Shown one piece after another: positions 5,685 through 7,754 of a stretch of DNA of 13,278 bases. The position numbers and the translations under genes are program-made. Position 1 is the first letter of the stretch; every line of letters starts with the position of its first letter. The notes beneath the pieces are model-generated. The model was given only the letters and a program-made list of their open reading frames with translations, was not told the DNA's origin and made no database searches. This DNA comes from Candidatus Hydrogenedentes bacterium CG07_land_8_20_14_0_80_42_17 (GTDB lineage: Bacteria > UBA8481): contig PEWQ01000081.1 of the NCBI GenBank assembly GCA_002780065.1, positions 1 to 13,278 of the forward strand, given 5' to 3'.

Positions 5685-7754
5685 TCATATTGCCACCCAT
5701 ACCACTAGAATAATGAATGCGACCATTAGACCCAGTATGTAGTCTCCAAGCCTGCCAGTCTGAATCATTCGAATTTTGTCGCCGGCATCTCGTATTAAAT
5801 CCGCAGTACCGTTTGCAACATAATCGATGCCTCTGAAGTCGGCAATTCCTGCTCCTTTAGAAACAATGACCGATGCAGTTCCAAAAGAATCTACAATTCG
5901 GTCGATTACTCTTCTATCGAAGATTCCGAGAGCTTTTGAAATTTCGATAACTTTTTTAATAAGCCAGAGATAAAAGTCGTCAACCCACCAGAGATTTACA
6001 AGAGCTTTATGAATTGATCGCCCGATAATTCCGCGCGTAAATATTTCGGCAGATATTTTTTCAAAGTGATAGACAATGAATGCGAGACCGATTCCGCTCA
6101 AACTTACAATTATAGACAGCACCATTGCTACAGTGTGCGCGCTATGCGGAATTTCTTCTTCCCCCCCGCCGAGCGCCCCACTGCCGAGCGCCCCACCGCC
6201 GAGCGCCCCACCGCCGAGCGATACAATAGATTCAAACGGCGTTCTCAACCACGACCAGCCCGACGCTATTGCAAATAGAGAAAGAATAATTAGAGGAACA
6301 GTCATTGATGCTGAACTTTCATGAGCATGTTCGAAGCGATGATGATCCTTTGGTTTTCCGTGAAAGACAAGGATCATCATTCTGAATGTGTAAAACGCAG
6401 TGAACGCAGTAGCGGAAATAAGCAGAAGAAAAGGAATGTAGCCTGCCGCACCGCGCTTCATGCCCCAGCCCAACGATACAGCGAGAATTTCATCTTTGGA
6501 GAAAAAACCTGAAAATCCAGGAAACCCTGTCAGTGCCAGTGCGCCGATCAGCATTGTAAAATAAGTGATCGGCATTTTTTGCTTAAGCCCACCCATCTCT
6601 CTCATGTCGCGTGTGTGCACTGCGTGGAGTACTGACCCTGAACCGAGAAAGAGTAGTGCCTTGAAGAACGCGTGCGTTACAAGATGAAATAAACCCGGCG
6701 TCCATCCTCCGACACCGAGCGACGCAAGCATGAACCCGAGCTGAGAAATAGTCGAGTATGCGAGTACTTTTTTGAAGTCCATTGCAGCGAGTGCCATTGA
6801 AGCCGCAAAGAGCGCAGTGAAACTTCCAACACCTGCTGTGACGATAAGCGCGGACTCAGGAAAGAACCCGAACGATATCGATCTGCCAACAAGATAAATT
6901 CCTGCGGCGACCATTGTTGCGGCGTGAATTAAAGCTGAGACCGGAGAAGGACCTTCCATTGCATCAGGCAGCCATACGTGAAGAGGAAACTGCGCCGACT
7001 TTCCAATTGCTCCAAGAAGTATGAGAAGTGATGCGGCTAACAATGCGGATTGCGATACTGCTCCGTTCGCAATTGCAGAATGAATTCCTCTAAAGGTAAA
7101 TGAACCTGTTGCTGAATAAAGAATAGCTATTGCAACGAAGAGCGCGGCGTCTCCGACTCGAGTTGTAAGAAACGCTTTCATTCCGGCTTTTCGCGGGGCG
7201 TCTCGGTCGTAGCCGACATCGGGGCACCACGAATAAAATCCGATTAGAAGATATGAACAGAGCCCCATGAGTTCCCAGAAAATAAAGAGGAAGAGGAGAT
7301 TGTCGGAGATGACCAATCCCAGCATTGCGAATGTGAAGAAAGATGTCTGTGCGAAGAAGCGCGAGTAGAGTGGATTTCCGTGCATGTAGCCGGAAGAGAA
7401 GATATGTATCAGAAGCGATACTGTAGTGACCATGAAGAGTGTTGCAATAGAAAGACCGTCAGTAAAAAAACCTAATTTGAACGCCTCGCCGAGCGCCCCC
7501 CCGCCGAGCGCCCCACCGCCGAGCGCCCCACCGCCGAGCGCCCCCCCGCCGAACGCCCAATCGACGGAGAGCGAAATATGAGGAACAGTCTGTTTTAGAA
7601 AAAAAGTAGGAATGAATAACGATAAAGCAGTTATCCAAGAAATTGTAATGCCAAGAATCGGGAGCCAGTCGCCTTTGCGGGGAAGTTTTCTTCCGATTAG
7701 AAGCTGAATCACGCTTGCGAAGAGTGGAGGAAAAAGAATCAGCAATATTTTCAT
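5685..7754 (-). CDS. nuoL: NADH-quinone oxidoreductase subunit L with two GGGAL repeat insertions
   Basis: The distal proton-pumping subunit of complex I, with the lateral helix and C-terminal extension expected of NuoL. At 689 residues it is longer than most family members. Signatures are GLSIATLFMVTTVSLLIHIF, FIFWELMGLCSYLLIGFYS with Glu161, GKSAQFPLHVWLPDAMEGP with Lys252, and HAFFKALLFLGSGSVLH. Two low-complexity insertions explain much of the extra length: (GGGAL) repeats at about residues 69-89, in the loop before the conserved DGLS segment, and at about 513-530, in the loop after GWSWL. Both are in loops between predicted helices of the same parity, so probably on the same membrane face. 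The core motifs are intact, so the protein is likely functional. It overlaps nuoK by 4 bp and has a clear AAAGGA ribosome site. Confidence 0.96.
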   Translation of the reverse strand: MKILLILFPPLFASVIQLLIGRKLPRKGDWLPILGITISWITALSLFIPTFFLKQTVPHISLSVDWAFGGGALGGGALGGGALGGGALGEAFKLGFFTDGLSIATLFMVTTVSLLIHIFSSGYMHGNPLYSRFFAQTSFFTFAMLGLVISDNLLFLFIFWELMGLCSYLLIGFYSWCPDVGYDRDAPRKAGMKAFLTTRVGDAALFVAIAILYSATGSFTFRGIHSAIANGAVSQSALLAASLLILLGAIGKSAQFPLHVWLPDAMEGPSPVSALIHAATMVAAGIYLVGRSISFGFFPESALIVTAGVGSFTALFAASMALAAMDFKKVLAYSTISQLGFMLASLGVGGWTPGLFHLVTHAFFKALLFLGSGSVLHAVHTRDMREMGGLKQKMPITYFTMLIGALALTGFPGFSGFFSKDEILAVSLGWGMKRGAAGYIPFLLLISATAFTAFYTFRMMILVFHGKPKDHHRFEHAHESSASMTVPLIILSLFAIASGWSWLRTPFESIVSLGGGALGGGALGSGALGGGEEEIPHSAHTVAMVLSIIVSLSGIGLAFIVYHFEKISAEIFTRGIIGRSIHKALVNLWWVDDFYLWLIKKVIEISKALGIFDRRVIDRIVDSFGTASVIVSKGAGIADFRGIDYVANGTADLIRDAGDKIRMIQTGRLGDYILGLMVAFIILVVWVAI
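6166..6220. repeat. 15-bp minisatellite in nuoL, distal array
   Basis: About 3.7 tandem copies of ccgccgagcgcccca (plus strand). Copy 2 (6181-6195) differs by one base (ctgcc), changing GGG to GSG in the protein. On the coding strand the unit reads GGGAL. It abuts a run of seven C at 6161-6167. The G+C content is far above that of the flanking gene. Confidence 0.92.
7486..7560. repeat. 15-bp minisatellite in nuoL, proximal array
   Basis: Five tandem copies of the same 15-bp unit as at 6166-6220. Two central copies (7501-7515, 7516-7530) are perfect, 7531-7545 has one change, and the outer two (7486-7500, 7546-7560) are degenerate. It encodes four consecutive GGGAL units between DWAF and EAFKLGF. 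Two C7 runs occur at 7496-7502 and 7541-7547. Confidence 0.92.

Follow-up and report, generated by a model that had tools for sequence, protein, structure and literature searches.

The nuoL gene and its two tandem arrays

The window, that is, the whole 13,278-nucleotide stretch of DNA analyzed here, contains a nuoL gene (5685..7754, minus strand) that encodes the antiporter-like subunit L of complex I in an intact frame of 689 amino acids. The assignment is based on two Pfam domains, Proton_antipo_N (PF00662; residues 92-134, from profile position 9) and Proton_antipo_M (PF00361; residues 150-433), on alignment to solved structures, among which NdhF and NuoL are the best relatives, and on the neighborhood: the frames on both sides read as other nuo subunits, in an apparently complete run of complex I genes.

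Two arrays of the same 15-bp unit lie within this gene in one orientation and one reading phase, as claimed in a preliminary description of this DNA and in agreement between TRF, the reading frame and the translation. Array 1 (7487..7558, minus strand; TRF period 15, 4.8 copies, 94% matches) encodes (GGGAL)n at residues ~69-89 in the loop between TM2 and TM3, directly upstream of the Proton_antipo_N match, and array 2 (6161..6220, minus strand; period 15, 4.0 copies, 93% matches), the proposed derived copy, encodes (GGGAL)n at residues ~513-532 in the TM14-TM15 loop. On the coding strand the unit reads GGT GGG GCG CTC GGC, or GGALG, in a phase equal to that of GGGAL. Array 1 begins with GGG GGG GCG CTC GGC, continues with two units that start with GGT and ends with GGG GGG GCG CTC GGC; array 2 consists of CTC GGC, two units that start with GGT, one that starts with AGT and a terminal GGG GGG. 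Synonymous codons match across the arrays, including GGG GCG CTC GGC in every full unit, and the longest identical stretch that they share is 38 bp (7503..7540 in array 1 and 6183..6220 in array 2, both on the minus strand); each array also has private variants. With up to three mismatches allowed, the unit is matched nine times in the window, always inside the two arrays, against 0.36 matches expected. The GC content of the arrays (0.87-0.89) is far above that of nuoL (0.48), as reported before, and that of the genome (0.42), and the unit indeed contains no stop codon in any of its six frames, a property that is true by inspection and carries little weight for a GC-rich 15-mer. Short, near-identical units arranged head to tail (93-94% matches in TRF), with a length that is a multiple of three and with the nuoL frame kept, are the features of an intragenic coding minisatellite.

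Conserved NuoL sequence is found on both sides of both arrays and, because the two Pfam domains are in place between them, the catalytic part of the protein is intact, as originally described. Both array-bearing loops presumably face the periplasm, given the known topology of NuoL and the alignment to solved structures, in line with the earlier proposal that they lie on the same side of the membrane. A structure model of NuoL, based on only three aligned proteins of the window, has a mean pLDDT of 38 and shows coil at both array sites; it is otherwise too poor to add anything on loop orientation. A literature search on tandem repeats in nuoL returned nothing relevant.

Comparison with homologous NuoL proteins

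Among the genomes compared, this one is alone in its genus and family, and the phylum is represented by one further genome, a sister at family distance. The nuoL of this sister (L022), 57% identical to the gene studied here, has no array. The comparison of the two genes, which the preliminary description had suggested as a check, turned out clear-cut at TM2-TM3: the loop from W to D is exactly 20 residues shorter in the sister, and the excess of 60 bp (7488..7547, minus strand) amounts to four 15-bp units, with WAFG(GGALG)4EAFKLGF aligned to WFGFGGLRLGF. The sister has WFGFGGLRLGFHAD in place of WAFG(GGALG)4EAFKLGFFTD, and the lengths are equal once the four units are discounted. In solved homologues, this W and the D of the next helix are ~13-15 residues apart, with small differences in length. 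Relative to the sister, array 1 is thus an exact insertion of four units, and the short hairpin that received it otherwise hardly varies in length. The TM14-TM15 region is variable and is 12 residues longer here than in the sister, so that array 2 is no clean multiple of the unit in this comparison. With one relative compared in the phylum, at family distance, intermediate states are unseen.

Distribution of the unit

The assembly consists of 2,388,137 bp in 207 contigs, with a completeness of 86.9%. Across the whole assembly, the tandem unit (searched as a 30-mer with up to three mismatches) was found in nuoL only, and a (GGGAL)6 protein query against six frames of the genome recovered only the two nuoL sites. 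These searches contradict the suggestion that the unit is scattered through the proteome. Single-unit matches with one or two mismatches do occur elsewhere in the genome; they are solitary, and their rate is not far above that of a reversed-pattern control. None of 40 additional genomes contains the tandem pattern, and neither the unit nor relatives of NuoL were found in viral contigs. A dispersed in-frame element would be expected to place the same unit in several genes, and in this 87%-complete assembly nuoL is the only carrier; further sites may be hidden in the missing 13% of the genome, given that contigs often end in repeats.

A single exact copy of the 30-mer is present among GTDB species contigs: it belongs to Candidatus Microthrix (L021, 2365-2394), falls in an ispE-like frame and reads TAERPTAERP. 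Given the different frame (TAERP) and the GC-rich genome, we judged this match to be unrelated and probably a coincidence.

Tandem repeats in the rest of the genome

A TRF survey of 1.44 Mb of this one genome yielded 177 arrays, most of which belong to a 14-bp AT-rich family or are 17-bp hairpin arrays. Almost a third (58 of 177) are no more than 60 bp away from a locus end, some of these ends being 20-kb cuts made for the analysis, which suggests that the arrays break the assembly. The dispersed 14-bp family (TTTCCAATTTGCAC) comprises about 50 arrays, which are frequently located at the ends of contigs (for example, L058 3-247; L070 1-221; L052 4-198; L094 8609-8756). The 17-bp unit forms ~30 arrays (for example, L067 2262-2348; L121 3724; L082 853-895; L107 1-97), in many of which a 5-bp stem encloses a loop of AATG/CATT. 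Stem sequences differ from array to array (GCGTC, GACAC, GAATC, GTATC), and the frequency of AATG enclosed by a 5-bp stem is ~4 times that expected. There are also 21-bp arrays with an inverted-repeat unit, GAACACATAGGTTC (L106 7083-7199; L112 1-102; L061 6283-6374; L064 3002-3047).

Period 15 dominates the perfect tandem duplications in gene-like frames, as delineated by greedy frame calling, which over-calls genes. Besides the nuoL pair, the 1.44 Mb contain eight in-frame arrays of period 15 (L036 16559-16619; L044 570-606; L049 16701-16746; L168 17202-17261; L058 2747-2792; L116 13009-13058; L167 1-45; L040 11983-12011), with units unrelated to that of nuoL. The notion of recurrent in-frame repeats in this genome thus survives in part: other 15-bp arrays exist in frame, each with a unit of its own. 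Pfam-supported carriers include an opp-type ATPase with the array inside oligo_HPY, TrpG with the array inside GATase, a UvrD/PcrA helicase with the array in the N-terminal tail, a secretin with HHH repeats and a CARDB protein. A perfect 18-bp array (LPDGIK, 3.6 copies; L079 1965-2028) is located in the N-terminal tail of ScpA, a carrier that Pfam likewise supports.

Of the eight period-15 units outside nuoL, six contain a 5-bp inverted repeat, compared to 3.7% of random 15-mers; against shuffles of their own composition the signal is weaker, with p<0.05 for three of the five units tested. In the nuoL unit the longest stem is 3 bp, no more than its composition would lead one to expect (p about 0.8), which lends no support to the idea that the arrays in nuoL arose because their unit forms a hairpin.

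The survey suggests that in-frame pentapeptide arrays repeatedly enter conserved proteins of this genome. A speculative and rather doubtful generalization is that some process in this lineage keeps creating hairpin-forming arrays of ~14-17 bp, of which only the 15-bp, pentapeptide versions survive inside genes. Should this be the case, the process would continually supply housekeeping proteins with in-frame loop spacers, and the nuoL pair would exemplify such arrays even spreading within one gene. The class of period-15 in-frame arrays may be of greater interest than the nuoL pair itself.

Probable origin of the nuoL arrays and proposed direction of copying

At best rotation and strand, the eight other in-gene 15-bp units agree with that of nuoL at no more than 7-8 of 15 positions, whereas the two nuoL units are identical, and shuffled units of the same composition are identical in ~1/10,000 trials. 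Given the identity of the unit and of its synonymous codons, in contrast to the other in-gene units, an independent origin of the two arrays is unlikely, as was argued from the outset; the assembly has no third site either, which makes copying within the gene the most parsimonious explanation. The original proposal on the origin of the pair therefore stands with respect to transfer between the loops, which is the best reading, and falls with respect to a dispersed minisatellite built of the nuoL unit.

A candidate seed adjoins array 1. In a scan of nuoL for in-phase similarity to the unit, the best stretch other than full units is GAT TGG GCG TTC GGC (DWAFG; 7548..7562, minus strand), which matches GGT GGG GCG CTC GGC in register at 12 of 15 positions, a level reached by ~1e-5 of random genomic 15-mers (about 1 in 100,000). 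The Trp of DWAFG aligns in E. coli NuoL, the NdhF chains and the sister, and the DWAFG copy thus overlaps native sequence, which is why we read it as the seed; the match could partly reflect degeneration or conversion of the array. Beside array 2, the best match is that of the IVSLG codons (10 of 15), carried by the 8-bp CGCTCGGC at the 5' coding edge of the array (6213..6220, minus strand), a possible microhomology anchor that may be native or part of the array. The comparison of 12 with 10 matches favors, without proving, the direction from TM2-TM3 to TM14-TM15. The order of the first Gly codons in array 2 (GGT-GGT-...-GGG) is compatible with a segment taken from the GGG-GGT-GGT-GGG of array 1, a weak indication. 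The arrays share no flank beyond the unit and, accordingly, the mechanism of copying is undocumented; a literature search found no paper that combines template switching, intragenic repeats and bacteria.

Taken together, we consider it probable that the pair is an intragenic coding minisatellite that was born by slippage at TM2-TM3 and then copied by way of short homology into TM14-TM15. Under this scenario, the native DWAFG codons would have been duplicated to yield the 15-bp unit, slippage would have expanded it to four or five copies, and a stretch of array 1 would have been copied in frame into the already variable TM14-TM15 loop, via short-homology (microhomology-guided) template switching or non-allelic recombination. 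Each addition would make a non-catalytic loop on the periplasmic side longer by a flexible, Gly-rich spacer that is tolerated and needs no special function, so that the effect on the protein is probably that of a neutral spacer. The arrays, their phase and identity, their confinement to nuoL in the assembly and the 60-bp excess over the sister are direct observations, whereas the copying step, its direction and the neutrality are inferred.

The opposite direction, with the array born at TM14-TM15 from the seed TCG CTC GGC and copied into the TM2-TM3 hairpin, is unlikely, although of the alternatives it fares best: the IVSLG codons with CGCTCGGC offer a potential seed, and, of the two loops, that of TM14-TM15 varies more in the alignment, but 10 of 15 is a weaker match than 12 of 15, the matching codons may themselves be array, and it is the DWAFG match that contains the conserved Trp. 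Somewhat less likely still is a scenario in which both arrays were seeded from a third source, namely a dispersed minisatellite unit, mobile or foreign, with the capacity to enter genes in frame. The genome is full of dispersed minisatellites (the 14-bp and 17-bp families) and contains other in-frame 15-bp arrays, and the composition of the unit is foreign to a 42%-GC genome; yet the unit occurs nowhere else in tandem in the assembly, the in-gene units are mutually unrelated, and the sole exact 30-mer elsewhere, that of Microthrix, is explainable by chance.

An assembly artefact appears improbable. The 38-bp shared stretch is longer than small k-mer sizes, many contigs of this assembly end in arrays, and errors of this kind, including wrong copy numbers of tandem repeats, are known (PMC6868369), so the copy numbers of the arrays may be wrong; nevertheless, both arrays keep the frame and carry private variants and, given that each loop is flanked by the parts of NuoL that normally adjoin it, no chimaeric joint needs to be invoked. 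Two independent expansions that converged on one unit because selection favored a flexible, Gly-rich spacer in the periplasm are the least probable of all: both loops carry, and by inference plausibly tolerate, Gly-rich additions, but convergence would not account for the shared synonymous codons or for a coincidence of about 1e-4 at equal composition.

The pair looks like a home-grown minisatellite copied from loop to loop, an unusual but understandable case of genome wear and tear. If the two-step history is true, nuoL provides a snapshot of a minisatellite that was born from native codons and moved within a gene, and of a respiratory enzyme left unbroken by such movement.

Comparison with known repeat systems

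PARCEL repeats resemble the nuoL arrays as bacterial tandem repeats within coding DNA; they occur in membrane-targeted proteins, and some have dyad symmetry. They differ in that PARCEL units are 25 residues long (PMC2996958) and make up a family of related sequences, for which horizontal spread has been proposed, whereas the nuoL unit encodes 5 residues in place of the 25-residue motif and is confined to nuoL. The nuoL unit also lacks a 5-bp dyad, its stem being 3 bp at most. The palindromic elements of Rickettsia are dispersed elements of about 100-150 bp that add in-frame segments to housekeeping genes, with function kept. The nuoL arrays share with them the in-frame addition to a housekeeping gene with function apparently intact, but consist of a 15-bp tandem unit in one gene. 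The closest likeness is to the intragenic coding minisatellites of bacteria (VNTRs with 3n-bp units), which likewise form short in-frame arrays in surface-exposed, length-tolerant parts of proteins, a likeness drawn from one genome; in contrast to these, the nuoL unit occupies two sites of one housekeeping membrane gene instead of one site in a surface protein.
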